Shown piece after piece: positions 6,376 to 34,444 of a stretch of 64,000 nucleotides of DNA. Each line of letters begins with the position of its first letter. Positions within the stretch are counted from its first letter, which is position 1. The DNA lies in contig NZ_CP045490.1 of the NCBI RefSeq assembly GCF_009392895.1, positions 62,001 to 126,000 on the forward strand. Reading direction: 5' to 3'. The DNA is from Natronorubrum aibiense. Lineage in GTDB: Archaea; Halobacteriota; Halobacteria; Halobacteriales; Natrialbaceae. A program made the translations under genes and the position numbers. The notes under the pieces are model-generated. The model had not been told where the DNA came from. It saw nothing but the letters and a program-made list of their open reading frames with translations, and did no database searches.

Positions 6376-6451
6376 ATCGGCTAGTGTCCATCTAGCAGTA
6401 GAAAAGTCATCACTGGATTATCAATGAACTAATGTCACCGTCCAGGACCAG

Positions 6452-7092: not shown

Positions 7093-7114
7093 ACACCTGA
7101 TTGCGGAACGCCGG

Positions 7115-8644
7115 TCAGTTGTTCGTCACTTCAACATTGTGTAGACCGAAGTTCACGTATGTGACCGGTGCCGGTACGATGATCTTCTCCGATTTGCCGA
7201 GCGCTGGTTCGACGCCCTCGAGGGCCGGATCGTGCTCGATGGTTGGGGTCCCGCTCGGATCAGAGAATCCACCACCGACCAGTGAACCCTGAACATCCAT
7301 GGTTCCGCCGAGATCGAACGTCTCTCGAGACGTGTCGTTCGTCGGCGCGTAAATCACTCCAGTGAAACTCTGCGTCCCGGATGACGTCATTTTGAACGAC
7401 GACGTTCCGTATATCTGCAGATGCTTCGACTTATAATCGGTATCAGTTACACCCTCAACGGAGATATTTGCATTTCCGTCCAAATTGAATCCGCCTGTCG
7501 TATAGATGTGCAGTTCGGACTCATTTGAGTGGTTTGTAACAGTTAAATCACTGCTCCCGATGTTGATAGACCCATTAACAATCACTGTCGTATCTCCCTC
7601 TGAAAGATCAAATTCGAGATTGTCAGGCAGCTCATCATTGGATCCACCTCCTTTTGTCATACCGAAGTTCTCGGTATAGTACGTTCCACTCGAGACAGTG
7701 CCGTCTTCGACGGCCTCGTCTAACTCAGTGTATTCGTCTTCCCCTTTGTCAACTAACGCCCCGATCTCGTCGTCGATTGGTTCTAAACCGAGCGAATCCG
7801 TCGGACGGGCATCTCCCTCGAGATGATCCTCTTCACCACTAATCGAGCCACCATAGACGACGTCACCAATGATCTCGTTTGCGCCATCTAATTCGAGATC
7901 ACCTTCGACTGCGATCGCTTGCTCGAAGTACGAATCGAGTTCGACTTCGCCGAGAAGGGCCGTCACTTCGCCGTGCGTTTCGTTAATTGGTTCGGCGTGG
8001 ATCGCGTCCGGTCCGATTTCGTTCTCGAAGTGTTGTTCCCAGCCGCGATAGTACTGACTCGTCACGGTAATATTGACGATCGTACTGTTTGCGACCATGT
8101 TCTCCTGCTCGACGTCGTCGTGTGTCATCGAGATGTCGCCGGAGCCGAGCGTCTCTTCGCCGTGGACGGTCGTCAGCGAAAAGCTCAGACTCTCGCCGCC
8201 ATTTTCCTGGGAGTCGTCGTAGTTGAATTTCGGGCCGGAGACGACTCGAGTCTGATTCCCCGTCTCTCTGAATACGGCGCCGCCTTCGAACGCGATGACT
8301 TCTCCATCATCGGCTTCGTACTCGATCGCACCGAACTCCCGTTCGATCGGATCCTCGCCACCGTATTCGATCACGATCTCACCGGTGTTCTCTCTCGTCA
8401 CTGCACCCTGCTCCCCAGCGTTTAGATTGATGTTCCGGGTCGAATCTTGTTTGACCGTCGTGTCCTCCAAGGAATGTCGGAGTTCGACGAATGACTGTTC
8501 GACGCGGTCGTGTTCAGCCTGCTGTTGTTGTTCCGACAGTGCGTAACTGCCAGCGAGCAACAGTCCAATGCTGCCGATCGCGACGACGCCAATGAGAATG
8601 ACGATGCTGATAACTGACGACTGCGCTCGAGTCCGAGCGGTCAC
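7115..8644 (-). CDS. Large type-IV-pilin-like/DUF7289-type surface protein
   Basis: The protein (509 residues from GTG 8644) opens with TARTRAQSSVISIVILIGVVAIGSIGLLLAGSYALSE, a short basic stretch plus one long hydrophobic helix as in haloarchaeal pilin-like DUF7289 proteins. An acidic, Asn/Thr-rich extracellular part follows, and the last 150 residues are repetitive beta-rich (DLTVTNHSNESELHIYTTG, FTGVIYAPTNDTS), similar to DUF7305-type tails. GTG 8644 is preferred over TTG 8680 because GGAGGG lies about 5 nt before it. It is probably membrane-anchored by the N-terminus and exposed outside. No partner gene adjoins. The family name is from recognition by eye. Confidence 0.8.
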   Translation of the reverse strand: MTARTRAQSSVISIVILIGVVAIGSIGLLLAGSYALSEQQQQAEHDRVEQSFVELRHSLEDTTVKQDSTRNINLNAGEQGAVTRENTGEIVIEYGGEDPIEREFGAIEYEADDGEVIAFEGGAVFRETGNQTRVVSGPKFNYDDSQENGGESLSFSLTTVHGEETLGSGDISMTHDDVEQENMVANSTIVNITVTSQYYRGWEQHFENEIGPDAIHAEPINETHGEVTALLGEVELDSYFEQAIAVEGDLELDGANEIIGDVVYGGSISGEEDHLEGDARPTDSLGLEPIDDEIGALVDKGEDEYTELDEAVEDGTVSSGTYYTENFGMTKGGGSNDELPDNLEFDLSEGDTTVIVNGSINIGSSDLTVTNHSNESELHIYTTGGFNLDGNANISVEGVTDTDYKSKHLQIYGTSSFKMTSSGTQSFTGVIYAPTNDTSRETFDLGGTMDVQGSLVGGGFSDPSGTPTIEHDPALEGVEPALGKSEKIIVPAPVTYVNFGLHNVEVTNN

Positions 8645-9341
8645 ACCATCCCTCCGTGAGTTCGAATCAAACGAAACCAATAGTCCATCGTCGCCATCAT
8701 GTGACGACGGTAGGAGATGTGAAAATTAAACCGAATTGATCGTTCATCTCTGGTTATCAGTTTAGCGGTCGTTCTGTATCGGATTGAAGCCCCACAAGGA
8801 GGTATTGAACTGGAAACCCGCATCTGCGATTTTGCAGTCTCTTTCCGTGGGTGGGTCAGTTCTTGTCCGGTTGCTGTATCGTACGCAGTCCTCCTCGAGG
8901 AACGGCACGACTGTGAGGAAGATGACGCGGTCGGACGAGCGACACGCCATCACGGGAGCGGTCGATCAGGTGCTTTGGGCCCCGAATCGAGTCAAATATC
9001 CAATGGGCTTAACTGTTGGGAGTACTATATGTCTCTTGGCGGGGAACGGAGGCCTGTCGTTGCCGACAGTATCCGTCCCAACTGAGACATCACGTCCCCG
9101 CCATCGGTCGCGATCGCTTCACTGTCGTCTCTCGATTGGACTCCGATCGCTGATCCCCTTCGGTGGACCCACCACCACCGAAACGGGGGCTCCACGCCAG
9201 TTTCTGGTCGATGCTATCCGTGTGTTCTCGAGGCCGGTTCTCAGTAGATCCGTTCGTACAGCAGCCACCCCAAAACCGTAGCGACTACTGTCGAAGGCGT
9301 TGGCCTCGCACTTTTGTAGCTTGGGTACTTAAATAACGCTC
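8645..9341. other. Intergenic region, no supported gene
   Basis: This stretch separates the divergent pilin-like and ABC transporter genes. A 165-codon open frame at 8784-9281 has arginine/serine-rich composition unlike haloarchaeal proteins and no recognisable motif, so it is not annotated. TTAAATAA at 9329-9336 is TATA-like but only 6 nt before the GTG at 9342. It would fit better with a start further downstream (see the ABC ATPase entry). Confidence 0.5.
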
Positions 9342-10469
9342 GTGACTGCGCGAGAAAACGAGGGGCAACCGAACGGAGGTCCGGTCGATTACCTCCTCGA
9401 TGACCGATCGGTCGTGAGCGTCGCCGATCGGCTGTCGCTCGACGAAGGGACCCGCAGCGAGGGACGCGATCCGCTCTCGGAACGCTTCGCCAGTGTCGAC
9501 ACGCTGCCGACGGAAGATGGCAGCATGGCTGTTTCGGTAACTGGTTTGCGAAAGCGCTTCGGCAACGGAACGGAGTCCGTCGTCGCCGTCGACGACGTTT
9601 CCTTCGACATCGAAACCGGCTCGATCGTCGGTCTGTTGGGACCGAACGGCGCCGGGAAGACGACGCTCATCAAGTCGATTTTGGGCATGGTGCTTCCGGA
9701 CGAGGGGTCCGTTCGGATCGGCGGCATCGATGTTTACGAGCACCCTCGAGACGCGTACGCGCACGCCGATGCGATGCTCGAGGGTGCCCGGAACGACTAC
9801 TGGCGGCTGACCGTCAGGGAGAACTTGCAATACTTCGCGACGATCAGCGGCGTCGACCCGGATTCGGTTCGCGGGCGCCACGAGCGGCTTCTGACCCAGC
9901 TGGGGCTTGCGGAGAAAGCAGACGTTCCCGTCCGCGACCTCTCGCGAGGGATGAAACAGAAAGTCTCGTTGGCCAGCGTCCTCGCCGGCGGTGCCGAGGT
10001 CGTTTTCCTCGACGAGCCGACGCTGGGGCTGGATATCGAGAGTTCGCGAACGCTCCAGCGGGAACTGCGACGCCTCGTCGAGGAGGAAGCCCTCACCGTC
10101 GTGCTCAGCAGCCACAACATGGACGTCGTCGAGACGGTGTGTGACCGCGTGCTCATCATGTCCAACGGCGGGATCATTGCAGACGACACCGTCGACGCGC
10201 TGCTGTCGGGCACCGATCACCACTCCATCGAAATCACGAGCCGTGACCTCGATTCGACCATCGTCTCGGCCCTCGAGGAGCGCTTCGAGACGATCAGTGT
10301 CGAGCCACGCGATCGAGGGCACCGGATCACCGTGACGACGGATAGCGACGGGCTGTACGCGCTGCTGGCCCATCTCCGCGCCGAAGACGTCTCCCTCGAG
10401 CGCGTCCGGACGATCGAGCCGGATCTCGAGGACGTCTTCGTCGACCTGACGGCCGGGAGGGACCGATAA
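9342..10469 (+). CDS. ABC transporter ATP-binding protein
   Basis: From GTG 9342 the protein has 375 residues: Walker A GPNGAGKTT (100-108), signature LSRGMKQK (200-207), Walker B VVFLDEPTLGLD (220-231) and H-loop His258 in LSSHNMD. The arrangement is that of drug/antibiotic-type ABC-2 exporter ATPases. The first 61 residues are a non-conserved acidic extension; ATG 9525 (MAVSVTGLRKRFG) would give the usual 314 residues and would also fit the TATA-like sequence at 9329-9336. The stop overlaps the start of the permease gene by one base, so they are translationally coupled. The cargo is unknown. Confidence 0.92.
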   Translation: MTARENEGQPNGGPVDYLLDDRSVVSVADRLSLDEGTRSEGRDPLSERFASVDTLPTEDGSMAVSVTGLRKRFGNGTESVVAVDDVSFDIETGSIVGLLGPNGAGKTTLIKSILGMVLPDEGSVRIGGIDVYEHPRDAYAHADAMLEGARNDYWRLTVRENLQYFATISGVDPDSVRGRHERLLTQLGLAEKADVPVRDLSRGMKQKVSLASVLAGGAEVVFLDEPTLGLDIESSRTLQRELRRLVEEEALTVVLSSHNMDVVETVCDRVLIMSNGGIIADDTVDALLSGTDHHSIEITSRDLDSTIVSALEERFETISVEPRDRGHRITVTTDSDGLYALLAHLRAEDVSLERVRTIEPDLEDVFVDLTAGRDR

Positions 10470-11278
10470 TGGCCAGCCAGCAGGGAACGGATGAAACGCC
10501 GCGTCCGGCCGGTTACTATCACCTCGCGCGGGCAGTGCTCTACCGCGAGTTCCTGATCTTCGTCCGCTATCCCGCCAACGCGATCGGCGGCATCGTCATC
10601 TCGGTGTTCTTCTTCGGCGTCCTCTTCTATGGCGGACGGATGATCGCTGGACAGGCGCTGACCGACTCGATCGAGGGGCTCATCGTCGGCTACTTCCTGT
10701 GGACGCTGTCAGTGGGCGCGTACTCCTCGATCTCGAACGACATCGCGAGCGAGGTCCAGTGGGGAACCCTCGAGCGCCACGTGATGACGCCGTTCGGGTT
10801 CGCGCCCGTGGCGCTGTTGAAAGGCGTCGCGAAGATCGTCCGGACGTTCATTACCTCGACGATCATCCTGATCGCGATGATCCTGATCACTGGGACGACG
10901 CTCGAATTGAATCTGCTCACGATCGTCGTCGTCGCGACGCTCAGCATCGTCTCGGTGCTCGGACTCGGGCTCGCAGCCGGTGGGGTGACGGTGCTCTACA
11001 AACAGATCGGCAACTGGCTGAACCTTCTCCAGTTCGGGTTCATCGTGCTCATCTCCGCTCCCGCGTTCGACCTCGGGTGGATGCAGGTGCTCCCGCTCGC
11101 CCACGGCAGCGCCCTCCTCCAGCGGGCGATGGTCGACGGTATCCGTCTCTGGGAGTTCACGGCGTTCGACCTCGTGCTGTTGGCCGCGACCGCAGCCGGT
11201 TATCTGGCGCTCGGGTACGTCGTCTTTCAGTACGCGACTCGTCGAGCACGACGGCTCGGCGTGCTCGGCGACTACTGA
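10469..11278 (+). CDS. ABC-2 type transporter permease
   Basis: The 269-residue protein has about six transmembrane segments (near 33-55, 68-90, 115-140, 145-170, 178-200, 232-255) and the ABC-2 pattern, including SNDIASEVQWGTLERHVMTPFG, the typical cytoplasmic coupling region. It overlaps the ATPase gene by one base (TAATG) and pairs with it as a half-exporter or two-component exporter. No periplasmic binding protein is present, consistent with export. The substrate is unknown. Confidence 0.92.
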   Translation: MASQQGTDETPRPAGYYHLARAVLYREFLIFVRYPANAIGGIVISVFFFGVLFYGGRMIAGQALTDSIEGLIVGYFLWTLSVGAYSSISNDIASEVQWGTLERHVMTPFGFAPVALLKGVAKIVRTFITSTIILIAMILITGTTLELNLLTIVVVATLSIVSVLGLGLAAGGVTVLYKQIGNWLNLLQFGFIVLISAPAFDLGWMQVLPLAHGSALLQRAMVDGIRLWEFTAFDLVLLAATAAGYLALGYVVFQYATRRARRLGVLGDY

Positions 11279-11672: not shown

Positions 11673-12695
11673 TCAGTCGGATTCGGGTTCCGACTCTGTG
11701 TCGTCGTCGGCCGCGAGAGCAGTGTCCGTTGTCCCGTCAGATTGGTCGTCAGCGTGCTCTGCGTCGCTGTCTGCTTCGTCCGTCCCATCCTGTTGATTGT
11801 CGGTGTGCTCCGCTTCGTTGTCATCCGCGGCGTCACCGTTTACCGGGCTCTCGGCTTCAGTATCGCCGTCCGTCACGTTGCTGCCGTGGTCGTCAGTGTT
11901 CTCGTCTTCGGTCCCGTCGCTTTGCACCTCAGTACCCTCAGGTTCGACCTCGTCGTCGGTCGACTCGTCGTGTCGTTCACCGTCACCGTCAATTTCGGCG
12001 TCATCGCCGGTCGACTCGTCGATCGAATCGGAACTCTCCGTTCGGTCCGTCTCGTCGCCGTCTTCGTCCGGCGGCGACTCGCTGTCGGAGCCGTCAGTCG
12101 ATTGTGGTGAGTCGGTCTCCGTCGCCGTCATCGTGTCGTCGGTGTCTTCTGGTGATTCTTCCCCTGGCGGTGTCTCGGATGCTGTGGATTCACTGTCCGC
12201 TACCGTTTCGTTCCCGTCAGCCCCGCTCTCGTTCGCGCCTCCGTCTTCGGTCATCGTCTCACCCTCGGTCGCGCCGATGCCGCCGGCAGAGTCGTTCCCA
12301 TCGGGTTCGGCCCCGTTGACGTCCGTTCCGTCTTCGGCCGTCTCGCCGTCACTCGAGCCCTCGTCATCGATCTGTGTATCGTTTGCAGCCGCCCCGGTGT
12401 CGCTTGAGGGCGTCTCAGATCCTTGTTCGGGGCCGCCGATGTCGTCCGGCAGCGACGAGCCACTCGAGCCGCAGTCGTCGGCCGACGCGTTTTCAGAGCC
12501 GTTCTCGTGATCGTGCTCGAGAGTATCTAGCGCTATTTCATCCGCGAGTGGAACCGAGAACGTCTCGCTGGTCGAGAACGTTCCTGACACGGATTCGGTG
12601 TCGGTAAACACCGCAACGGTGACCGCGCCGCCGGCGAAGCCAGCCGTTGCGACGAGGAGACAGATGACGACGACGAGCGCACGACTCGAGGTCAT
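11673..12695 (-). CDS. Secreted acidic Ser/Thr-rich low-complexity protein with SipW-type signal
   Basis: The 340-residue product has a hydrophobic N-terminus (ALVVVICLLVATAGFAGGAV, residues 6-25) followed by TVAVFTDTESVSG, a variant of the SipW-cognate AYFSDxExxxGN motif, but no twin arginine. From about residue 60 it is almost wholly Asp, Glu, Ser, Thr, Gly and Asn, without exact repeats, as in disordered cell-surface spacers. Its start overlaps the stop of the signal peptidase gene (ATGA), so it is co-translated with its probable processing enzyme. A matrix or wall-spanning role is inferred. Confidence 0.8.
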   Translation of the reverse strand: MTSSRALVVVICLLVATAGFAGGAVTVAVFTDTESVSGTFSTSETFSVPLADEIALDTLEHDHENGSENASADDCGSSGSSLPDDIGGPEQGSETPSSDTGAAANDTQIDDEGSSDGETAEDGTDVNGAEPDGNDSAGGIGATEGETMTEDGGANESGADGNETVADSESTASETPPGEESPEDTDDTMTATETDSPQSTDGSDSESPPDEDGDETDRTESSDSIDESTGDDAEIDGDGERHDESTDDEVEPEGTEVQSDGTEDENTDDHGSNVTDGDTEAESPVNGDAADDNEAEHTDNQQDGTDEADSDAEHADDQSDGTTDTALAADDDTESEPESD

Positions 12696-13744
12696 TCAGA
12701 ATCCTCCGTCGATTCCTCCGGCGGCGCTGGTTCGGGAGTCTCCGCCCACTCTATCGGCGAGGATGCGTCGGGTTCCATCCCCTGTGCTGTCGCAGCGTCC
12801 GCCGAGTCCGTCGGCTCACGCTCGGTCGCTTTCGCCTCTGTCGGCCTCGAGTCCGTCGCGGCCGACCCCATAGCGATCTCGTCGGCAGTCGTCACGCTCG
12901 AGCCGCCATCCGTTGCCGCACCATCGTCGCTCACGTCACCGGGTGCTGTCGGTACCGGTGGCGATCGCTCCCGTTCTGCGGTGTCGCCTCGAGCGGCCAG
13001 CAACAGCCCACCGGCGGCGAGCGCCGAGAACGTCGCCGCGAACGCGATCGAGATCGTCAGCGTGGTCTGAAGCTCGAGGGCGACGTAGATCGCGTAAACG
13101 GCGACGGGGACCAGAATTACGGTCGACAGCCGCAGGTCGGTCGGGCTGATGGTGAACTCTGCGGCCGTCGACGCCGCGGGCTCGGAGGCCGTCGGTTCTG
13201 CACTGTCGGTGGTGTCGTCGCTGTCGCCGCCGTCTGCAGCCGCGTCAGTTCGGCCGGCACGCACGAGCGACCACAGTTCGGTCACGACGAGCAGCCCCAG
13301 CGGAACGGCGACGAGCAGGACGAACCCGAGCGGCGTGCTCACGGCCTGAATCGCGTAGCCGATGTAGGGAATCGTCAGGACGACGACGCCGAGGACGTTC
13401 GCTGCCGGGACCAGGCTGGCGTCCACGTCGCTATTTGCGTCTCCTTTCGTCTCGAAGGCGAGTCCGGCCTCGGTCTCCTCGACCCCTACGACGCGGTGCG
13501 TCACGGGCGTTTCTTCACTCCCGCGAACGTACGTGATCACGTCGGCCGTCTCGATCGTCGCCGGGTCCCGGTCGGCGACGACGACCACGTCACCGGCCTC
13601 GATCGCGGGTGCCATGCTGCCCGAGAGGACGACGAAGCTGTACTCCGCGCCGATCACGCCCGGAACCGCGTAGATAACGAACGGGACGACGAGGGCGATC
13701 AACAGGACCAATCCGACTCTATTTGCGAGTGTTTTGTAGTTCAT
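12692..13744 (-). CDS. SipW-like signal peptidase I (S26B, ER/archaeal type) with acidic C-terminal extension
   Basis: The 350-residue protein has an N-terminal membrane helix (10-30), the nucleophile motif VVLSGSMAPAIEAGDVV with Ser43, and VTHRVVGV with His83. The His in place of Lys marks the archaeal/ER S26B subtype to which Bacillus SipW belongs. Asp residues in TKGDANSDVD complete the site. One to two further helices (about 133-155, 210-255) and a Ser/Glu/Thr-rich tail follow. It is embedded between SipW-type substrate genes, abutting the previous stop (13745) and overlapping the next start, so it is very probably the dedicated processing enzyme for this cluster. Confidence 0.92.
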   Translation of the reverse strand: MNYKTLANRVGLVLLIALVVPFVIYAVPGVIGAEYSFVVLSGSMAPAIEAGDVVVVADRDPATIETADVITYVRGSEETPVTHRVVGVEETEAGLAFETKGDANSDVDASLVPAANVLGVVVLTIPYIGYAIQAVSTPLGFVLLVAVPLGLLVVTELWSLVRAGRTDAAADGGDSDDTTDSAEPTASEPAASTAAEFTISPTDLRLSTVILVPVAVYAIYVALELQTTLTISIAFAATFSALAAGGLLLAARGDTAERERSPPVPTAPGDVSDDGAATDGGSSVTTADEIAMGSAATDSRPTEAKATEREPTDSADAATAQGMEPDASSPIEWAETPEPAPPEESTEDSE

Positions 13745-14710
13745 TTACGATGTCACCCCACAGAGGTAGTTCTCCTCGGTGTCGAGCGCCTCGAGGACGG
13801 TGAGGCTGTACGTGCCGTCGGAGATCACGAGTCCCGGCCCGAACGGCTGTGAGCAGCTGATGTGGAAGTCGCCGATGGTGGTTCCGTCGACGACGACGTC
13901 GAAATCGGGGCCGCCCTTGATTCCGGGTGGATCGTGGAGGGCCGCAGTGAACGTGTCACCGGGTTCGACTGTTCGCTCGAACTCGACCGTATCCGACCCT
14001 CGCAGCAGTGTCAGTGTCGTCTCGCCGTCCGGCCCGTCGTACGCGAAGGTCGCCCGTGCGATGCGGTTCCCGTTTTGCTCGGGACAGGCGACACAGTCCG
14101 GGGGCTCATCGCAGGGCGCAACGCTCTCGAAGGGATCACGAGCACTGTCTGCATCGACGTGACGGCACTGTTCGGCGACCAGTTCGACCGTCAAGTCGGT
14201 CGTCTCGCCTGCTAGCGAATCCGGGACGTCGTCGGGCAGTTCCCACTCGAGTGAGAGCGCGACCGGTGTCTCGGGGTCGGTACAGCCCTCGAGTCGAACG
14301 CCGGTGGCGAGCGTTCGCGAGACGGCCGACAGGCTGCCCGCGGTGATCGTCTCGCCGTCGACGCGGAAGACGACTGCGAGGGCGTCACCGAGCGAGTCGC
14401 TGATCGGTGGACAGCGCGTTCGGAGCCAGAGGCGTGCCGGATTCGTTCCGACGGTCAGGGAGACGGCGATCGTGTCACCGTCGCCCCGGTCGATCCCGTC
14501 GAACGCGAACGCCAGTCGGCCGTCGACGATCGAACACGCGTCGCAGTCGACGTCGATGGCGATCGAGCCGGTCTTGAGCGCGTTCGTCACGCGCTGGCGG
14601 TCGCTCAAATACGCGCCGGTGCCGACGCCGGCGACCGCGCCAGCGGTACCGATGCCACCGACTGCGGCGAGTATCTGGCGGCGGCTCAGTCCGATGGGCT
14701 CTTGACTCAT
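13745..14710 (-). CDS. Tat/SipW-type secreted protein with extra C-terminal domain
   Basis: The 321-residue protein starts at ATG 14710 (MSQEPIGLSRRQILAAVGG); a longer frame adds unrelated Arg-rich sequence. It combines a twin-arginine signal with the SipW-like GAYLSDRQRV motif near residues 32-41. The TasA-like scaffold runs to LVAEQCRH (177-184). An additional Cys-containing domain of about 135 residues follows, ending in DFHISCSQPFGPGLVISDG and LEALDTEENYLCG. The gene overlaps the previous one by one base (TGATG) and is followed directly by the signal peptidase gene. It is probably a cell-surface or matrix protein with a passenger domain appended after the scaffold. Confidence 0.82.
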   Translation of the reverse strand: MSQEPIGLSRRQILAAVGGIGTAGAVAGVGTGAYLSDRQRVTNALKTGSIAIDVDCDACSIVDGRLAFAFDGIDRGDGDTIAVSLTVGTNPARLWLRTRCPPISDSLGDALAVVFRVDGETITAGSLSAVSRTLATGVRLEGCTDPETPVALSLEWELPDDVPDSLAGETTDLTVELVAEQCRHVDADSARDPFESVAPCDEPPDCVACPEQNGNRIARATFAYDGPDGETTLTLLRGSDTVEFERTVEPGDTFTAALHDPPGIKGGPDFDVVVDGTTIGDFHISCSQPFGPGLVISDGTYSLTVLEALDTEENYLCGVTS

Positions 14711-15429
14711 CAGCTTCCCCCGCACTGTTCTGCGCCGACTGCGAGTTCGAACTCGAGGGACTGGTTTTGCCACTCGTTCGTAGCCGATTCGCTGATGGTC
14801 CACGCGAATCCCAGACAGAGTCGGTCTCCTTTGGCGAGACAGTTGCCGAAGCCGTTTCGAAGCCGGAGACCGTCGGTTCCGGGCCCGTACGTCTCGCCGA
14901 ACTCGGAGAGGGATGACTCGATGTCGGGATCGTCGGGAATCGCTCCCGTCCCAGTACAGCCGCCGATGCCGAACAGTCCGGTATCGTACCAGAGTGCGAC
15001 GTCGACGACCTCACTGAGATCGCCCGAAACGGTCGGAACCAGTCTGATTCGTGTGTCCATGTCCTCTGCAAGGAGCCCGAGGCTGATCGTTCCGGTATCT
15101 CCCGGAAGGACGTTCGACGCCTCGATCAGGGGGCCATCCGTCGCCGCGTCGTAGCCGTCGATATACGCATCGGCAGGTGCGTCTCCTGCGGTCCACGCAG
15201 TCTCGTTTACGATCGGCGCCGCGTTCACCATGCGATCGTTGTAGGTGCTGTACCAGGCGACGCGGAGTCGTGGTCCGTCGTTGCCTTCCGTCTGAGCATA
15301 GGTGTAGTTCGTGTATTCCGGCGTGTCGCCCGTAACGGTCGCTCCTCGGAATCCGAGGGTAACGAGTCCGGCGGTACCGACGCCGCCGAGTAGCTTTCGC
15401 CGAGTGATCGTCGTTGTGCGTTGTGTCAC
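14710..15429 (-). CDS. Tat-signal secreted protein, divergent member of the surface family
   Basis: The 239-residue protein has a twin-arginine signal (TITRRKLLGGVGTAGLVTLGF) but lacks the AYFSD SipW motif. Its scaffold resembles the neighbours: SNVLPGDTGTISLGLL corresponds to their DVKPGDSGEVTFGI, and the C-terminus LEFELAVGAEQCGGS to FDLSFYTEQCRHN, with RHN replaced by GGS. It is the first gene of a four-gene overlapping set with the next secreted protein, the signal peptidase and the acidic protein. Being Tat-exported without the SipW motif, it may be processed differently. Confidence 0.78.
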   Translation of the reverse strand: MTQRTTTITRRKLLGGVGTAGLVTLGFRGATVTGDTPEYTNYTYAQTEGNDGPRLRVAWYSTYNDRMVNAAPIVNETAWTAGDAPADAYIDGYDAATDGPLIEASNVLPGDTGTISLGLLAEDMDTRIRLVPTVSGDLSEVVDVALWYDTGLFGIGGCTGTGAIPDDPDIESSLSEFGETYGPGTDGLRLRNGFGNCLAKGDRLCLGFAWTISESATNEWQNQSLEFELAVGAEQCGGS

Positions 15430-15739
15430 TGTCGTACCTCAGTTCGCTCAGCCGCCTCCGGCGGACTGGCCGTATTCGTCGCTCGTGATAGTCGCGGAAT
15501 GCATGGACCGCTGTACTCCGCTGGCGGGGATATGAATGACAGTCATACCGTTCGCGGACGGATCCGGCAGGTCCATGCTACCGCCCACAGCTGCCGTGGC
15601 AGGTCCGGCCTACCATCGTCGATAGCACGCTTTCGTGGCCACAACCGAGCCCGTTCCCGGGCCGTCGAAACCGAGCTGTGGACGCCTGCTGATCGATCGG
15701 GCGTGGACCAATGTGATACACACTCACTGTCCCGAACGA
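15430..15739. other. Intergenic region before the signal peptidase operon
   Basis: No gene is supported in these 310 bp. A dyad ATGAC-A-GTCAT lies at 15536-15546, about 107 bp before the start at 15429; a related dyad occurs upstream of the DUF4870 gene (23420-23435). No clear TATA box was identified. The promoter of the operon should lie here. Confidence 0.4.
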
Positions 15740-17086
15740 TCATGCTTCGAAGGGATCGATGGGATCGGGGTTGTGTCGGCACTGCTCGGTGTAGAACGAC
15801 AGATCGAACGCGACGCTGTCACCTTGGACCTCGTTGCCGACGGTGGTCGGGAGGTGCCACTCGAAGGCGATGAATCGAGTGTTCGACGGCTCGAAACAGA
15901 CCGCTTCCGACGCTGGTGGCTCCTCGGGTGGAAGCACGTCGTAGCAGAAACTAACGTGGCTGACACCGTAGCGTTGGGTGCTGTTTCGAAGCGGTGCGCC
16001 GAGTCCAACACCCGAATCGGCAGTGAGGACGTCGTCGCTGCTCTCCTTTCGGTAGACGTTCCCGTCCGGACCACCCTTGACGATGACGGCGCTCACCTCG
16101 AACCCATCGAGCGTGAAATCGAACTCGCGGACGTCGCCGCCGGACAGCTCGGTCACCGTGATCGTGACGTCGCCGACCGGCGTGGTGTACGTCTCCGAGT
16201 CGCCCACCACATTCGGCAGGTCTTCCGATTCGATCTTGATCGCCCGGAACAGGCCGAGATCTTCACACGTCGGGTTGCGCGGGACGACCTCCTCGTCGCC
16301 ATCCTCGAGCATCTCACCGTCGCCTGCTGTCGTATCCGGGACGCCGAGGTCGACGTCGGGGTCATACGCGAGCATGATGCCCGCATTCAACAGGTCGAGG
16401 ACCTCTCTGAGCGAGCCGGCGGCGATGGCTGGTTCCCCCGGATCGAACACGTTGTTACCGTTCGTGTCGTACCACGCACGAGCGCGGATCGCATCGGCCA
16501 GCTCCGGGCCATTGCTCTCCGGATGGCTGCCGTCACCCTCGTCGACGAGGGCGCCGTGGAGCCAGATGTAGCCGGGGTTGTCACAGAGTTTGATGCCGAA
16601 GGTCACTTCACCGGAGTCGCCCGGCTTCACGTCGTCGAGTTCGATGAGCGCGTCGTCGTTCGGGGCGAACGACGGACCATCGAACGTTGCGATCTCCGCA
16701 CAGCTAAACTCGAGGTTCGTGCCCGCCATCGCCGCCTCGAGGGGGTCGCTGTACGCGGCGCGGTCGACGTACTCGTCGACGCCGTCGTCGCGTTCGAACG
16801 ACTGGAGACCGTCGCCGTCGTGGTCCGGATAGGCGTTCACGAACGGGCGGCCAGCCGTGCCGTAGTCTTCGGGACGCCCTGATTGGGGCGCGCCGTCGTA
16901 GAGCTGTTGCCAGGTGACGCTCAACTCGAGTTGTCCTGCGGTGAGTGTGTTCCCCGAGAACGTCTCGCGGTCGCTGAAGTAGGCGGTCGTGCCGAGTCCC
17001 GCACCTGTCGACGCAATGCCGACGGCACCGAGACCCGCTAACACGCGTCGTCGGGAAAACCCAACCGCTGAATCGGTCGTTGTCAT
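15740..17086 (-). CDS. Tat/SipW-type TasA-like surface protein with inserted beta domain
   Basis: The 448-residue protein starts at ATG 17086 (MTTTDSAVGFSRRRVLAG), with twin arginines at 12-13 and the SipW motif TTAYFSDRETFSGN at 33-46. Scaffold landmarks are DDVKPGDSGEVTFG (151-164), NPGYIWLHG (170-178), RARAWYDTNGNNVFD (201-215), AAGSLREVLDLLNAG (222-236), FEWHLPTTVGNEVQGD (408-423) and YTEQCRHN (432-439). Between 280 and 385 it carries an extra domain ending VKGGPDGNVYRKES and GVSHVSFCYD, absent from the paralogues. The leader contains a two-hairpin element shared with the next paralogue. It is probably a secreted matrix or surface-fibre protein. Confidence 0.88.
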   Translation of the reverse strand: MTTTDSAVGFSRRRVLAGLGAVGIASTGAGLGTTAYFSDRETFSGNTLTAGQLELSVTWQQLYDGAPQSGRPEDYGTAGRPFVNAYPDHDGDGLQSFERDDGVDEYVDRAAYSDPLEAAMAGTNLEFSCAEIATFDGPSFAPNDDALIELDDVKPGDSGEVTFGIKLCDNPGYIWLHGALVDEGDGSHPESNGPELADAIRARAWYDTNGNNVFDPGEPAIAAGSLREVLDLLNAGIMLAYDPDVDLGVPDTTAGDGEMLEDGDEEVVPRNPTCEDLGLFRAIKIESEDLPNVVGDSETYTTPVGDVTITVTELSGGDVREFDFTLDGFEVSAVIVKGGPDGNVYRKESSDDVLTADSGVGLGAPLRNSTQRYGVSHVSFCYDVLPPEEPPASEAVCFEPSNTRFIAFEWHLPTTVGNEVQGDSVAFDLSFYTEQCRHNPDPIDPFEA

Positions 17087-17098
17087 GATTGCTCCCTC

Positions 17099-17130
17099 GT
17101 GGGACGTCCCACCGGCGGAGTCGAACCGCC
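17099..17130 (-). promoter_or_regulatory. Two-hairpin, tRNA T-arm-like mRNA leader (copy 1)
   Basis: On the minus strand hairpin A is GGCGG-TTCGACT-CCGCC (17130-17114), an ideal tRNA T-arm. After one spacer base comes hairpin B, GTGGG-ACGT-CCCAC (17112-17099). Hairpin B ends 12 nt before the start codon, directly before a GGGAG ribosome-binding site. The GTGGGAC strand could instead pair with GTCCCAT at 17197-17191, closing a 92-nt multi-branched fold with two further stems (17135-17151, 17160-17176). The same element lies at identical distance before the paralogue at 18986. Confidence 0.6.
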
Positions 17131-17246
17131 GTCCCGCGGCCTCGAGCCGCGTCACGTGCTCTCGGCGAGGCCGAGAACGCTGTGCTCCAAATGGGACCCA
17201 AGTGTGGCCCGTCGGATCGGCCGACGAAGCTGCTGTCACCTTCGAT

Positions 17247-18986
17247 TCAGTTCGGAGCCGTCTCTGCGACGAAGTTGTGCCGGCACTGCTCGGTGTAGAG
17301 CCCGAGATCGAACTCGAGGGACGCTCCTTGGACGTCGTTGTTGTCCATCGTCGCTTCGGGATCGGTCGACCGGATCGGGAACGACCAGCTGAAGCCGACA
17401 CAGTGGGTCATCTCCGGTTCGAAACAGTCGATGCCGTCCTCACGCGGCACGGCGTCGATGATCCGTCCGGGATCGCTCTCGAGGACGTCGAACACCTCGG
17501 CAAGGGTTCCGCAGGCGACGACTTTCTCCGGGAGAATCTCGATCGCGACCTGTGCGAACAGGCCGGGGATCGACGCCGGGTCGTCGATGTTGAAGAAAAA
17601 CGCCGGGTCGCCGCCGTAGGCGAACGGATCGCCGCTGAAGGTCGCGGCCGTCGCGCCGCTGACGTCGATCGGCAGTCCCGCCGGCCCGGCCATCACGCGC
17701 TGGGTAAACTCGGCACGGGAGTCACCGGCATCATCGCCGACGATGAAGATGCTCGTCGCGTAGTCGGGGTCGGTTCGGGCCGCGTTCGCGGCGGTCAACA
17801 GATCCTCGAAGCGATCGTTCGTCAGGCTCCCGCCGAAGTACGGCTCGCCGTCCGTGAACGTGATCGACTGCGGCTTGCGGCTGTCGTCGATGCGACCGTC
17901 GAACAGATCCATGAGTTCGCCGAACCCTTCCTCGAGGGCCGTTCCGGTGCCGTCGAACAGATCGTCGAGCTGGTCCCGAAGGTTCCGTAACGGCGCCTCG
18001 CCGCTCCCGTCGAGCGTCACCAAGTCGATGATGTCCGACGTGAATCCGTCGTCGTCGGGATCACCCCAGCCGCTGAGGTCCGCCGACGTGACGACGTTCG
18101 GGCCGGGATTGCTCGAGTCGCCGTCGCTGCTGTAGCCGTCGAAGAACACCGCGCCGATACGGAAGTCGTCGCTGTCGATGTTCGGGTCGGCGTCGATTTC
18201 GCCCTGCAGGAGGTCGACGAAGTCGATGACTCCTTGTTCGACGAGATCGATCTTCGCGGTCTGGCTGTAGGTCGTCTCGCCGTACTCGGCGTCGCCGACC
18301 GTGATCGAGTCGCCCGTGACGATCCCGTTGTACTGCGAGTACAGCATCGAGCCCGAGAAGTCGATCATCAACACGAGATCGGATGGCTCGAGGTCGTCGT
18401 AGACGTTGTCACAGTCCTCGTCGCGCCAGATCTTCGCGCGGAGGTAGTCGGCGAGCTGGCCGTCGCCAGCGCCGGGAGTCTCGCCGGTAACCTCGCCGTT
18501 CATCCAGACGTAGCCGGGGTTGTCACAGAGCGTGAACCCGAACGTGACCTCGCCTTCGTCACCGGGTTTGAGATCGGCGAGCGAAATCGCCGGCCGCGGT
18601 GCATCTCCCAGCCCCTCGAAGTCGCCACACGAGAGCGGGATGTTGCGCCCGTCCGCAGGGTCGTCGCTCGGATCGTCGACGTAGGTCAGGCCGCCGAGCG
18701 ACTGAATCCCGTCGTCGTCGTGATCCGGGTACGCGTTGATCCAGGGGCGACCGGCCGTGCCGTAGTCTCCCGGACGAACCGACTGGTCCGCCCCGTAGTA
18801 GAGCTGTTGCCAGCTGCCGTGCATGGTGAGCTGGCCGGCGGTGAGCGTGTTTCCGTCGAACGATTCCCGGTCGCTGAAGTAGGCGGTCGTCCCGAGTCCC
18901 GCGCCGACCGACGCGACCCCGATCGCGCCGAGTCCGCCGAGGATCTTTCGTCGGGAAAGACCGACCGTCTCGTCGTTGGTAGTCAT
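17247..18986 (-). CDS. Tat/SipW-type surface protein with nested von Willebrand A domain
   Basis: The 579-residue protein has twin arginines at 12-13 and TTAYFSDRESFDGN at 33-46. The TasA-like scaffold shows DLKPGDEGEVTFG (138-150), NPGYVWMNG (156-164) and KIWRDEDCDNVYD (185-197). A vWA domain then interrupts it at about 203-487, with MIDAS residues Asp209, Ser211 and Ser213 in LMIDFSGSM. The scaffold resumes at VVACGTLAEVFDVLES (489-504) and closes with NDVQGASLEFDLGLYTEQCRHN (550-571). vWA domains bind protein ligands through a metal ion, so this may be an adhesin-like surface component. The leader shares the two-hairpin element with the previous paralogue. Confidence 0.9.
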   Translation of the reverse strand: MTTNDETVGLSRRKILGGLGAIGVASVGAGLGTTAYFSDRESFDGNTLTAGQLTMHGSWQQLYYGADQSVRPGDYGTAGRPWINAYPDHDDDGIQSLGGLTYVDDPSDDPADGRNIPLSCGDFEGLGDAPRPAISLADLKPGDEGEVTFGFTLCDNPGYVWMNGEVTGETPGAGDGQLADYLRAKIWRDEDCDNVYDDLEPSDLVLMIDFSGSMLYSQYNGIVTGDSITVGDAEYGETTYSQTAKIDLVEQGVIDFVDLLQGEIDADPNIDSDDFRIGAVFFDGYSSDGDSSNPGPNVVTSADLSGWGDPDDDGFTSDIIDLVTLDGSGEAPLRNLRDQLDDLFDGTGTALEEGFGELMDLFDGRIDDSRKPQSITFTDGEPYFGGSLTNDRFEDLLTAANAARTDPDYATSIFIVGDDAGDSRAEFTQRVMAGPAGLPIDVSGATAATFSGDPFAYGGDPAFFFNIDDPASIPGLFAQVAIEILPEKVVACGTLAEVFDVLESDPGRIIDAVPREDGIDCFEPEMTHCVGFSWSFPIRSTDPEATMDNNDVQGASLEFDLGLYTEQCRHNFVAETAPN

Positions 18987-18998
18987 AGTATGTCCCCG

Positions 18999-19030
18999 AT
19001 GGGGAAGCCCACTTGCGGAGTCGAACCGCC
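18999..19030 (-). promoter_or_regulatory. Two-hairpin, tRNA T-arm-like mRNA leader (copy 2)
   Basis: On the minus strand hairpin A is GCGG-TTCGACT-CCGC (19029-19015), followed after two bases by hairpin B, GTGGG-CTTC-CCCAT (19012-18999). Hairpin B ends 12 nt before ATG 18986, directly before GGGGA. Loop sequences differ from copy 1 while stems and distances are kept. A GTGGG on the plus strand at 19093-19097 could also form a roughly 90-nt enclosing stem. No complete tRNA can be folded. Confidence 0.6.
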
Positions 19031-19123
19031 CCTGTAAACCGCGATCACGGTCGTACCGGCCGGTCCGCGAGCGTCCGATCGCCCGCTACCGGGTGGGTGG
19101 TCAGTCGAACGTTGGATGGCTAC

Positions 19124-19882
19124 TCAGGGTGCGAGTCCCATCGCGTTGTCCAGGACGCTTGCTGCGTCGTTGTGGCGCGCCTGTTCGGCGTAGAACGTCA
19201 TGCTCGAGGTCAGCGTCGCCCCCTGAATCTCGTTGCCAACGGCCGTCGGAATCGTGACCTCCAGACAGACGGTCACCATCTCGCCGGGTTGGAAGGTGAC
19301 AGGTCCCTCCTCGTCGGAGACGATGATGCCACTCTCGAGGCTCGCGAGAAGGGCGGCCAGCGAGTCGTAGGCCTGCTCGTGTTCGACACCGTCGACGGTG
19401 GTCGTGAGCGTCGCCGTCGCCGATTCGCCGATCGTCGAGAGATCGTCCTCATCGTCGATATCCCAGAGGTCGGCCAGATCGACGGTTCCGGCCTCGACAC
19501 CGTTTTGTTCAGCTGCATCGCCGACGACGACCACGTAGCCGGGGTTGTCGTTGACAGTGATATCCCAGCAGAATTCGTACTCGTCACCGGGTTTTGCGTC
19601 CTCGATATCGATTTCCGACTGCACCCAGATGCCGTCTTCTTCAGAGCCACTTTCGTAAGCCGCCTCATCGGGGCCCATTCCGTCTTGGTCGACGTAGCGG
19701 ATCGACTGCTCGACCTCGAGGCTGAACTCGCCTGCCGTGATCGTGTTCCCCTCGAACGTCTCGCTGTCGCTGAAGTACGCTGTCGTTCCCAGTCCCGCCC
19801 CCGCGGAGGCGATGCCGATCGCGCCGAGTCCACCGAGCACGCGTCGGCGGGACAGTCCAATGTTGCTGTTGTCGTCGGTCAT
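19124..19882 (-). CDS. Tat/SipW-type TasA-like surface protein, minimal scaffold
   Basis: This 252-residue protein is the shortest member with the complete signal. Twin arginines lie at 12-13, TTAYFSDSETFEGN at 33-46, IEDAKPGDEYEFCWDI at 93-108, NPGYVVVVG at 113-121 and TAVGNEIQGATLTSS at 213-227, ending YAEQARHND (231-239) with Ala in place of the usual Cys. It has no passenger domain, so it approximates the bare scaffold of the family. The start is preceded by AGGAG. A leader hairpin CGGGC-TCGAG-GCCCG lies at 19907-19921. It is probably the first gene of a run with the 579- and 448-residue paralogues. Confidence 0.88.
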   Translation of the reverse strand: MTDDNSNIGLSRRRVLGGLGAIGIASAGAGLGTTAYFSDSETFEGNTITAGEFSLEVEQSIRYVDQDGMGPDEAAYESGSEEDGIWVQSEIDIEDAKPGDEYEFCWDITVNDNPGYVVVVGDAAEQNGVEAGTVDLADLWDIDDEDDLSTIGESATATLTTTVDGVEHEQAYDSLAALLASLESGIIVSDEEGPVTFQPGEMVTVCLEVTIPTAVGNEIQGATLTSSMTFYAEQARHNDAASVLDNAMGLAP

Positions 19883-20220
19883 GTGTTTACTCCTGAGCGA
19901 CCGACGCGGGCTCGAGGCCCGTTGTGGTCGTTCAGTTAACTCTCCAGGAGCGAGCGTCGGACGTAGTTACGAGCAGATACGTCACGATCGAACGACACGA
20001 TCGAACTCGATCGATCGGCACGAACCTCCCGTTCGAAGGCTGTAGGGTCGCCGAACCGCTATTTATCGCTCTCGAATACCCGCTGGATCGACTGGATTAC
20101 CGGCTCGATCCCAGACGGTCGGGACGACATACCGCCCCCAGTGTCGGTCGCTGGCCGACCGTACGCGGTGATAGGCCGACACGACCGGTGGCGGTATGTG
20201 ACACATGCTGACGTATCATC
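19883..20220. other. Divergent intergenic region with a promoter element shared with the 518-residue vWA gene
   Basis: Between the surface protein gene (minus) and the winged-helix gene (plus) lies CGTAGTTACGAGCAG (19962-19976) followed by A and TACGTC. The same block occurs at 22594-22615, and each copy is about 78-80 bp before its minus-strand gene. Its first ten bases form the dyad CGTA-GT-TACG. A hairpin lies at 19907-19921. No gene is supported here. Confidence 0.5.
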
Positions 20221-20772
20221 ATGTATTACTGTTCAGCGATCACGATGTTTCGAACGACCGTCCTCTCTGAGGGAGATATCTACGAGGTGCTCTCGAACAG
20301 TCGCCGCCGCGAAGCGCTCCGGCACCTGACCGACGTCCGTGGCTGTACGGTGACGATCGGGGAGCTCGCGGCGACAATTGCAGCGACCGAGGCCGGTCAG
20401 TCGCCAGCCCCAAGGCCAGCCCGCGAGAGCGTTCGTAGCTCGCTCCACCAGACGCACCTCCCGAAACTCGACGAACTCGGCATCGTCAGCTACGATCGAA
20501 CGACCGGCACCGTCTCACTGTGTGATCCCGCGCGGGACGTGGATCGATACATGGAGATCCTCGCTCCCTACGGGCTCACTTGGAGCGAGCTGTATCGAAC
20601 CTTCGGCATCGGCTCGTTGTTGGTCGTTCTCGCGGCGCTGCTCGAGGTACCCCTCGTTGGCGCGGTCGATCCGCTGTTGTGGGCCAGTGGCTCGCTCGCA
20701 GCGTTTGCGGTGGCGATCGCCGCTCAGTTCTGGTCGAATCGCTGGGCCGTGCTTCGAACGTTGTGGAGCTGA
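20221..20772 (+). CDS. Membrane-anchored winged-helix protein (DUF7344 type)
   Basis: The 183-residue product has an N-terminal winged helix: IYEVLSNSRRREALRHLTDV, then VTIGELAATIA and HQTHLPKLDELGIVSYDRTTGTVSL at about residues 22-102. Two hydrophobic helices (about 125-148 and 150-170) would anchor it in the membrane with the HTH inside. ATG 20245 (MFRTTVLSE) is an alternative start that matches family length better. It is divergent from one TasA-like gene and convergent with the 518-residue vWA gene, so it probably regulates this surface cluster. The second such protein at 24673 is a paralogue. Confidence 0.8.
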   Translation: MYYCSAITMFRTTVLSEGDIYEVLSNSRRREALRHLTDVRGCTVTIGELAATIAATEAGQSPAPRPARESVRSSLHQTHLPKLDELGIVSYDRTTGTVSLCDPARDVDRYMEILAPYGLTWSELYRTFGIGSLLVVLAALLEVPLVGAVDPLLWASGSLAAFAVAIAAQFWSNRWAVLRTLWS

Positions 20773-20959
20773 GCCGGAGTGTACCGACCGGTCGTCGACA
20801 CTCGTTTTCCGTCGCGTTGTAATCGTCAGTGTCAGCAGTCACACCAGCCGGCGACCGTGAGCCGAGACTGTGTGTCGGTCGTATCGCTCGAGTCAGCCGA
20901 CGTCGAAAAATCAGTTTCTCATCACTATCGCGACAGCGATACCGGTCGCCAGCCCGCGA

Positions 20960-22516
20960 TCACGCGGATGCGAACGGGTTCTGCTCGCCGTCGTTGTGTC
21001 GGCACTGTTCGGCTGCGAAGCCGATTGCAAACTCGACGGAGTCGGTCTGGACCTCGTTGCCGACGTCGGTGGGCAACTCCCATTCGAAGCCAAAACAGCG
21101 CGTGACGGCAGTGCTGTAGCACGCCCGCTCTCCCTCTTGGAGGTTCGCGTCGAGCGGGATGCCCTCCTCGAGCGCTTCCATCACTTCCCGGAGCGTGCCC
21201 TCGGCGATGACCGCTTCGCCGCTGAGGACGACCGAGGCGATCTGTGCGTAGATGTCGTCGAGTTCGGCACCTGTGGGCGTGTCGTAGTACAGTGTCGTGC
21301 CGTTGCTCTCGCTGGCCATCGCGATGAGTGTGTTCTGTGCGGTGCTTCCGTTGGGGACGCCCAGCCCGATCGTAAACACCGTAATGGCGTCGTCTTTGGC
21401 GTCCTGGGCAGCGTCGATCGCGTTCTGGACGTGATCGCTTCCGGACCGAGCCGACCGGTTCGGCTGGCCGTCGCCGAGTAGGATGATGACCTGATCGGCC
21501 CCGCGATCGTTGGCCTGCAGTTCGTCGGCCGCGAGGTCGACGCCGACGTCCATCATCGTCGACCCGCCCGCGGTGATCCCCGCAGAGCCCGGTTGAAGTT
21601 GTGATTCGACCAGCGAGTGGTCGCCCGTCAGCGGTTGGACCAGCGACCCGCTCGAGTCGAACGTCACGAGGCCGATGCGGTCGTTCGAGCCGAGGTTGTC
21701 GACGAACGTCAGCGCAGCCGCCTTCGCGTTCTCCATTCGACTGCCGCTCCCGCTGCCCATCGAGCCCGAAGTGTCGATCGAGAGCATCACGTCGACACCC
21801 TCGCCCTCCTCGCCACCACCCTCCGATTGATGGATGTTATCACAGTTGTCGTCGTACCAGATCTTCGCCTTGATCGCGTCGGCGAGTTGGCCGTCCCCAT
21901 CCGGGTCGTCGGTGGGAAGGCCCATCTCCTCGAGCGCGCCGATCTCCGGGCCGGTGTAGCCGTTCTGGGCGTTCACGGTGAGCGTGCCGCCCATCCACAT
22001 GTAGCCGGGGTTGTCGTAGAGGTGCGTGCTAAACGTCACTTCGCCGTAGTCGCCGGGTTTGACGTCGCCGATGCGGATCAGCGCCGCCTCGAGGTCGCCA
22101 GCGTCGACCAGTTCTTCGCGTCGGAAACCCTCACCCTCTTCGGATTCGGGGTCGAAGATGCCGTTCGCGCCGCGGACCCAGTCGTCCGCATCGGGGTAGG
22201 CGTCGCGCCCGGGCACCTGATCGAGCAGGTAGATCCCAGTGTCCTCGTCCGTTGGGTTCATCTCCTCGTCCGCGAACGTGGCGTCGGGGTAGTGCTGCTG
22301 GAGTTCCTCGAGGCGGCCGTGACCGCCGCGGTAGGTCATCCGGTAGTCCATCTTGAGGTCGAACTCACCCGCTGTGAGCGTGTTCCCCACGAACGTCTCG
22401 CGGTCGCTGAAGTACGCCGTCGTTCCCAGTCCTGCACCCGCACTCGCGAGACCGATCGCACCGAGCCCGCCGAGAATGCGTCGGCGGGACAGTTCTATAC
22501 TGTTCTCATCTGTCAT
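20960..22516 (-). CDS. Tat/SipW-type surface protein with nested von Willebrand A domain (second copy)
   Basis: The 518-residue protein has twin arginines at 11-12 and TTAYFSDRETFVGN at 32-45. The scaffold blocks are GDVKPGDYGEVTFS (150-163), NPGYMWMGG (169-177) and KIWYDDNCDNIHQ (218-230). A vWA domain fills 241-432 with a complete MIDAS: Asp248, Ser250, Ser252 in SIDTSGSM, Thr320 in GGST and Asp349 in LLGDGQPN. The scaffold resumes at VIAEGTLREVMEALEEG (436-452) and ends FEWELPTDVGNEVQTD (477-492), AAEQCRHND (501-509). It has an AGGAG ribosome-binding site and the promoter block shared with the 252-residue paralogue. It stands as its own transcription unit. Confidence 0.9.
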   Translation of the reverse strand: MTDENSIELSRRRILGGLGAIGLASAGAGLGTTAYFSDRETFVGNTLTAGEFDLKMDYRMTYRGGHGRLEELQQHYPDATFADEEMNPTDEDTGIYLLDQVPGRDAYPDADDWVRGANGIFDPESEEGEGFRREELVDAGDLEAALIRIGDVKPGDYGEVTFSTHLYDNPGYMWMGGTLTVNAQNGYTGPEIGALEEMGLPTDDPDGDGQLADAIKAKIWYDDNCDNIHQSEGGGEEGEGVDVMLSIDTSGSMGSGSGSRMENAKAAALTFVDNLGSNDRIGLVTFDSSGSLVQPLTGDHSLVESQLQPGSAGITAGGSTMMDVGVDLAADELQANDRGADQVIILLGDGQPNRSARSGSDHVQNAIDAAQDAKDDAITVFTIGLGVPNGSTAQNTLIAMASESNGTTLYYDTPTGAELDDIYAQIASVVLSGEAVIAEGTLREVMEALEEGIPLDANLQEGERACYSTAVTRCFGFEWELPTDVGNEVQTDSVEFAIGFAAEQCRHNDGEQNPFASA

Positions 22517-24672: not shown

Positions 24673-25257
24673 ATGGGGGGAAGTTCGTCGCGGGGGACGG
24701 AGCGGAGAGTCTCTGAAACGGATCAATCGGTCGGTGGTTCTGATGGGGAAGCACAACTATCGAGAGACACGGTATTCAAAACACTCTCCAATCGTCGTCG
24801 TCGGCTCACACTTCAGTACCTTTCCGAACACGGCACGAACGACGCGCCAGTTCGGCTTCGTGACCTCGCCGAATGGATCGCAGCCGCAGAGAACGACGTT
24901 CCCGTCGAGTCAGTCACGTACAAACAACGCAAACGGGTCTACACGTCTTTGTACCAGTCTCACTTGCCGGCGCTTCATCGAGATGGAATCGTCCAGTACG
25001 ATCGTGCCCGCGGAACCATTTCGATGACACCGGCTACCGGCACGTTCGATACGTATCTCGGATTCACTTCACAGACCGGTTCCGCCTGGTCGCTGTACTG
25101 GCTCGGACTCGGTGTCGCGTTGCTACTTGTTGCGCTTCTCTCCTGGTTTAATGTCGTCTCGTTCCCAATCTCCAGTCCGCTTCTCACGTTGGTGGTGTCG
25201 CTGGTGGTGCTCGCGTCCGCTGTTATATTTGCGCACACTGGCGCTCGCAGCGACTAA
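24673..25257 (+). CDS. Membrane-anchored winged-helix protein (DUF7344 type), second copy
   Basis: The 194-residue protein carries SRDTVFKTLSNRRRRLTLQY (about 29-48), VRLRDLAEWIAAAEND and YTSLYQSHLPALHRDGIVQYDRA, the winged helix of the same family as the gene at 20221. Two hydrophobic helices (about 137-158 and 163-187) follow at the C-terminus. The N-terminal 28 residues are Ser/Gly-rich. It is a single gene behind an AT-rich promoter and ends 44 nt before a run of seven T. It is probably a membrane-tethered DNA-binding regulator; the targets are not evident. Confidence 0.82.
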   Translation: MGGSSSRGTERRVSETDQSVGGSDGEAQLSRDTVFKTLSNRRRRLTLQYLSEHGTNDAPVRLRDLAEWIAAAENDVPVESVTYKQRKRVYTSLYQSHLPALHRDGIVQYDRARGTISMTPATGTFDTYLGFTSQTGSAWSLYWLGLGVALLLVALLSWFNVVSFPISSPLLTLVVSLVVLASAVIFAHTGARSD

Positions 25258-34431: not shown

Positions 34432-34444
34432 GTACGATATTCCA

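Follow-up and report, generated by a model that had tools for sequence, protein, structure and literature searches.

A haloarchaeal gene cluster with a SipW-like signal peptidase and TasA-like secreted proteins: a probable fibre-assembly locus

Results

The window, a 64,000-nucleotide (nt) stretch of Natronorubrum aibiense DNA (positions 62001-126000 of contig C3, which has 356,702 bp, in a 4.35-Mb haloarchaeal genome), contains a signal peptidase gene and a group of secreted-protein genes that probably form a TasA-type fibre-assembly locus. An earlier reading of the same DNA, made from its letters alone (the sequence-only reading), had described the peptidase beside seven secreted-protein genes, and all eight were found, on the minus strand between positions 11673 and 22516. 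The first in the direction of transcription (20960..22516) encodes a 518-amino acid (aa) TasA-like subunit with an inserted VWA domain (Pfam VWA; metal ion-dependent adhesion site, MIDAS, DTSGSM), a signal of the twin-arginine translocation (Tat) type and the mature start AYFSD; it scored 30.2 bits with TIGR04088, the NCBI model of SipW-cognate signals, whose cut-off is 19 bits. It is followed by the genes of a 252-aa bare TasA-like scaffold, the candidate main fibre subunit (19124..19882; 35.8 bits; AlphaFold2 and Foldseek), of a TasA-like subunit of 579 aa whose VWA-type insert is diverged (17247..18986; MIDAS DFSGSM; 28.6 bits) and of a TasA-like subunit of 449 aa whose insert is not of VWA type (15740..17089; 29.5 bits). 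The remaining genes encode a 239-aa TasA relative recognized by hidden Markov model (HMM) homology, which has a twin-arginine signal without the SipW-cognate motif and is a candidate acceptor-only end subunit (14710..15429); a protein of about 321 aa, with an AYLSD signal in its TasA-like N-terminal half and a C-terminal beta domain (13745..14710; 19.6 bits); the 350-aa SipW-like signal peptidase I with residues Ser43, His83 and Asp102 (12692..13744; 99.8 bits with TIGR02228); and a 340-aa secreted acidic Ser/Thr-rich protein, a candidate TapA-like donor or anchor, whose own cognate signal is of the general secretory (Sec) type with no twin arginine (11673..12695; 22.5 bits). The 239- and 321-aa genes overlap by 1 nt, the 321-aa and peptidase genes abut, and the peptidase and acidic-protein genes overlap by 4 nt (ATGA), which bears out the claim of an overlapping operon joining the peptidase to three of the seven. 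The start of the 449-aa protein was corrected from 17401 to 17089, and that of the 321-aa protein to 14710.

The profile search for SipW-cognate signals that had been suggested as a check placed six of the seven secreted proteins at or above the TIGR04088 cut-off (the 518-, 252-, 579- and 449-aa and acidic proteins by hmmscan, the 321-aa protein in the whole-genome scan), and the 239-aa protein fell below it. The AYxSD-type motif claimed for five proteins was located as AY[FL]SD in the 518-, 252-, 579-, 449- and 321-aa proteins and was absent from the 239-aa protein. Mature proteins begin with Y-F-S-D or near variants, so that the P2' residue is aromatic or aliphatic; P2' of TasA is F, and an aromatic residue there has been tied to poor cleavage by the ordinary bacterial signal peptidase (PMC10269814). 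TIGR04088 has nine matches in the whole genome, six of them in the 10.8-kb cluster and two in a second, smaller cluster on contig C4 (L018, stretch 68000-84000, positions 6144-10683 of that stretch). The top two scores of signal peptidases with the archaeal model belong to precisely the enzymes of these two clusters. Since the cognate genes are almost confined to two places, each with its own SipW-like peptidase, their grouping is not due to chance. In the C4 cluster a DUF7344 regulator gene is followed by the peptidase gene, which overlaps it, and by the gene of an acidic-tailed secreted protein, with a 529-aa TasA-like protein encoded nearby. The ATGA overlap between peptidase and acidic-tailed genes is the same as in the window, and the C4 acidic-tailed protein has extra sequence beyond the strand.

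The sequence-only reading had assigned the peptidase to the "SipW (S26B, Ser/His) class". Its likeness to SipW stands on the SipW-model score and the gene pairing; the class, as an argument, was dropped: type I signal peptidases of archaea generally belong to S26B (PMC4343526), so that membership is not diagnostic of SipW. Residues Ser43, His83 and Asp102 are invariant in 68/68 aligned cluster peptidases. With the Bacillus SipW model NF046067 the window peptidase scored 96.6 bits, 60 bits above the better of two further signal peptidases encoded in the genome (36 and 22 bits), and the C4 enzyme scored 93 bits. As these values lie below the equivalog cut-off of 190, the enzymes are SipW-like and not SipW orthologues by the NCBI rule.

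The pairing was surveyed in a sample of 121 genomes of the same family. The cluster-type peptidases formed a distinct high-scoring group (84-124 bits, the rest scoring at most 72), and 49 of 50 SipW-like peptidases were encoded no more than 5.2 kb from a TIGR04088 gene (median 1.8 kb), as against two of the 100 lower-scoring peptidases among the matches listed, for which the distance considered was 10 kb. Conversely, 121 of 132 cognate genes lay within 10 kb of a SipW-like peptidase gene. Sampled genomes without cognate genes had no SipW-like peptidase, and the three with cognate genes and no such peptidase were all incomplete assemblies. These results indicate that the locus peptidase is very likely a dedicated SipW-like enzyme. 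As a separate observation, the control genome of Haloferax volcanii encodes a SipW-cognate protein above the cut-off but has no TIGR02228 match at E <= 1e-8, a threshold that the cluster peptidases pass.

To compare the scaffold with TasA, a comparison that the sequence-only reading had called for, the mature 252-aa protein was modelled with AlphaFold2 from an alignment of 41 sequences (predicted local distance difference test, pLDDT, 86.4; predicted template modelling score 0.81). The first seven residues and residues 10-13 are of low confidence, which fits what a free N-terminal strand would give. When the model was compared by Foldseek with 350,542 PDB chains, the TasA fibre 8aur ranked first (E 1.6e-3) and the TasA monomer 5of1 fifth (E 7e-3), both with probability 1.00, a value reached by no other entry of the top 50. 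The outcome that the sequence-only reading had named as refuting, a predicted scaffold structure without relation to TasA/camelysin, was thus not obtained. The Pfam camelysin/TasA family PF12389 matches the 449-aa protein at its cut-off (22.5 bits), the 252-aa protein slightly below it (21.6 bits) and 40 of 41 scaffold relatives at E <= 0.1. The residues kept most strictly are mature F2, D4, K62-P63-G64-D65, N182, Q185 and E198-Q199; F2 is present in more than 90% of 44 sequences, and P63 and Q199 are invariant. In TasA the most conserved interface residues are F29, P62 and Q232, which make up the "proline box" (PMC10151520), and by motif and order F2, P63 and Q199 of the scaffold plausibly correspond to them. 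The 579-aa protein is 39% identical to the 518-aa protein, with the MIDAS aligned, and has orthologues with the same motif; the 449-aa protein is 33.6% identical to the 529-aa protein of C4. The subunits are thus very probably of TasA-like fold, and the central idea of the sequence-only reading, a dedicated SipW-like peptidase serving TasA-like secreted subunits, was upheld by the near-absolute co-localisation, the SipW-model scores and the best PDB match.

In the 518-aa protein a full VWA domain (residues 242-424; Pfam, 66 bits) is set between scaffold strands. The VWA fold was confirmed in its AlphaFold2 model (pLDDT 78.7), for which Foldseek returned VWA domains including, among many others, those of the pilus adhesins Mfa5, SpaC and PilB of Streptococcus sanguinis. 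Of 73 loci, 49 encode TasA-like proteins with a strict MIDAS motif; there are 57 matches, of which one (L062_48) may be due to chance. It is rather likely that the 518- and 579-aa proteins are adhesive or tip subunits. The sequence-only reading had seen diversified paralogues instead of one major subunit. The paralogues are there, and they are better read as a bare subunit accompanied by adhesin-bearing and capping paralogues.

Twin arginines followed by a long uncharged stretch, such as LSRRRVLGGLGAIG, are found in 277 of 291 TasA-like open reading frames (ORFs), and most of the acidic partner proteins have no twin-arginine signal. The NCBIfam TAT model scored below its cut-off (14.8 vs. 16.7). 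Because they are made with twin-arginine signals, the subunits are probably exported folded by the Tat route, as the motif suggests.

The two remaining secreted proteins are candidates for the ends of a fibre. The 239-aa protein joins the TasA-like set by HMM iteration, and the cleavage and donor-strand motif is present in 0 of 49 of its relatives vs. 151 of 163 TasA-like proteins. It may be an acceptor-only end cap, a doubtful assignment. Of 66 cluster peptidase genes, 56 are followed by a gene for a small secreted protein, mostly with an overlap of 1-14 nt, and TapA of Bacillus, whose gene overlaps sipW, gives its N terminus to TasA (PMC10151520). The acidic protein is tentatively regarded as a TapA-like donor or anchor. 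The sequence-only reading had taken it for a spacer or filler, a view left unsupported by its own cognate signal and its place as conserved, frame-overlapping partner of the peptidase. In a wider form of that explanation neither protein is a fibre part, the acidic one being a secreted matrix or osmotic filler and the 239-aa one an unrelated secreted protein. It agrees with a low-complexity acidic tail that varies greatly in length and composition among counterparts, and with the lack of a family match for the 239-aa protein in profile scans, but the recurrence of the overlapping gene, including the C4 version with its extra sequence, and the HMM link of the 239-aa protein to the TasA-like set make it somewhat unlikely.

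Two genes for DUF7344 regulators lie on the plus strand. One, of winged-helix type, is divergent from the 252-aa gene (20221..20772; PF24035, 95.5 bits), and the other stands at the edge of the cluster (24673..25257; 99.5 bits). A divergent DUF7344 gene is found beside a TasA-like gene in 65 of the 66 loci that have both, a count that measures conservation and not independent events because the loci are homologous; in the whole genome there are about 37 DUF7344 matches.

When species genomes were searched, relatives of the 252-aa scaffold were found at 71 loci in Halobacteria, and the architecture of these loci counts in favour of the fibre reading. Among 242 genomes of the class, all at least 90% complete, a peptidase relative is encoded in 112, and such relatives are spread over 46 of 73 genera; they are patchy within genera and sometimes reside on megaplasmids. 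Among bacterial plasmids, NZ_CP044239.1 of Lacticaseibacillus paracasei alone matched the cluster peptidase (19396-19674, 36.8% identity). A viral origin was considered and rejected, the fold search of viral proteins having given generic beta matches only. In the Natronorubrum bangense copy, which is on a megaplasmid (L094), the NCBI labels are "SipW-dependent-type signal peptide-containing protein", "signal peptidase I" and "hypothetical protein" only. Archaeal relatives of TasA, the archaeal bundling pili (ABP), are already known, as far as they are cited in PMC10151520 and PMC9674648. In the literature searched, which did not include the main ABP paper, no description was found of the haloarchaeal locus, its Tat-type signals, its VWA subunits or its end proteins.

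Several other genes of the window were recognized by eye. Just outside the cluster, at 7115-8644, lies the gene of a 509-aa protein whose start, ...TRAQSSVISIVILIGVVAIGSIG, is like the N-terminus of a type IV pilin and which possibly belongs to a separate surface-protein group. An ATP-binding cassette transporter ATPase and permease pair (9342-11278) adjoins the cluster. A TnpB-like RNA-guided endonuclease/transposon ORF lies near it (25597-26916), and TnpB/IS200 sequences are also found near the N. bangense copy. Genes for arsenite efflux (ACR3-like) and then arsenate reductase (ArsC-like) are located at 33178-34903. A scan for bacterial-type promoters and terminators gave nothing above chance, models of this type not being suited to archaea.

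Discussion

We propose, with a probability of about 0.65, that this haloarchaeal locus directs TasA-type fibre assembly, the polymerisation being inferred. Subunits of TasA/camelysin fold (252, 449, 518, 579, 321 and 239 aa) would fold inside the cytoplasm and then be exported by Tat, and the dedicated peptidase would cut after ...GTTA, before the Y-F start, freeing the N-terminal strand, as suggested by the motif and the gene pairing. In TasA the freed strand completes the groove of a neighbouring subunit (PMC9674648); here too it would enter the neighbour's groove by donor-strand exchange, so that a fibre would form on the cell surface. The likely repeating unit would be the bare 252-aa protein, and the 518- and 579-aa VWA proteins would serve in adhesion or at the tip. 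The acidic protein, which would leave by Sec and is translated together with the peptidase, may place a donor strand on an acidic tail and act as a TapA-like nucleator or anchor, and the 239-aa protein, without the strand motif, may be the acceptor-only end. If the Tat route is true, the question is how a folded, self-complemented subunit switches to donor-strand exchange; cleavage by the peptidase would therefore be the likely trigger. In its complete form, that is, a Tat-exported, pre-folded donor-strand fibre released by the peptidase, with integrin-like VWA adhesin domains within the fibre subunit and two complementary ends (the acidic protein with a strand and no jelly roll, the 239-aa protein the reverse), the scheme is a speculative one and rather improbable as a whole.

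Gene content, conservation, co-localisation, motifs and predicted fold are what the analysis shows, and Tat use, cleavage, polymerisation and the part played by each subunit are inferred. Several points weigh against a fibre locus. The Foldseek TM-scores of the TasA matches are modest (0.40-0.46), and a sequence search of the PDB with the scaffold found no TasA chain, the link being found by fold comparison. Once the signal and first strand are removed, PF12389 matches fall from 40 of 41 relatives to seven of 41, with a best E of 0.01. The family match was accordingly rejected as proof of homology, and because the signal and first strand account for most of it, the link of the scaffold body to TasA rests mainly on fold. 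Finally, the likeness of the acidic-protein start to a donor strand is partial (p <= 0.05 in 14 of 24 sampled; p = 0.016 for the window's own).

Alternatively, the proteins could be S-layer-associated, individually secreted adhesins or carbohydrate- or metal-binding proteins, which share the TasA-like fold and the dedicated peptidase and do not polymerise. In favour of this, VWA domains serve in adhesion, additional C-terminal beta domains are found in many relatives, a jelly roll alone implies no fibre, and several unlike paralogues take the place of one dominant subunit. However, the strictest residues (first strand, KPGD and Q199) plausibly match the TasA protomer interface (PMC10151520), many loci have a bare-scaffold subunit, and a peptidase-linked donor-like protein together with a strand-less 239-aa protein suits an assembly system. 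We consider this alternative unlikely. That the proteins are camelysin-type (M73) metallo-endopeptidases, as the name of PF12389 could suggest, is highly improbable and was rejected, since HExxH is absent from all 291 TasA-like ORFs and TasA itself, although grouped with camelysins, is structural (PMC9674648, PMC10151520).

The fibres of haloarchaea are mostly discussed as type IV pili. If the TasA-type assembly proposed here is true, many genera would have a second haloarchaeal fibre system that has a processing enzyme, adhesin subunits and regulators of its own, and such a system would offer a genetic handle on haloarchaeal adhesion and biofilms.

Parts of the locus recall several known systems. 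The PDB entry 9p0a, "Pilin", has a deposited sequence that starts with a similar twin-arginine signal (E 0.02), and the likeness is limited to that signal. The VWA tip pilins (Mfa5, SpaC and S. sanguinis PilB) also have a VWA/MIDAS adhesin domain within a pilus subunit, but they belong to type V or sortase-assembled pili and not to TasA-fold fibres. The AbpA bundling pili of Pyrobaculum calidifontis and ABPx of Pyrodictium are, as far as the accounts consulted describe them, archaeal TasA-related donor-strand fibres; they belong to hyperthermophilic crenarchaea. AbpX (9sj2) weakly matches the scaffold profile in the KPGD region (E 0.17). The B. cereus locus sipW-calY1-bc_1280-calY2 likewise has several camelysin/TasA paralogues next to one SipW, but VWA inserts and Tat-type signals are not described there (PMC10151520). 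The tapA-sipW-tasA operon of B. subtilis (PMC9674648, PMC10151520) differs in that its TasA is a Sec substrate (PMC10269814), whereas the haloarchaeal subunits have twin-arginine signals; in that the haloarchaeal locus has six TasA-like paralogues, some of them VWA-bearing; in that the partner of the haloarchaeal peptidase has an acidic tail and no recognisable immunoglobulin domain, unlike TapA; and in its regulators, the haloarchaeal locus having DUF7344. In both loci the operon that encodes the substrates also encodes a Ser/His signal peptidase dedicated to them, the cognate signals have an aromatic residue at P2', and the subunits have a TasA jelly roll, predicted in the haloarchaeal case, with a free N-terminal strand; in both, too, a partner gene overlaps the peptidase gene, the tapA stop with the sipW start in B. 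subtilis and the peptidase stop with the acidic-protein start in the haloarchaeon.

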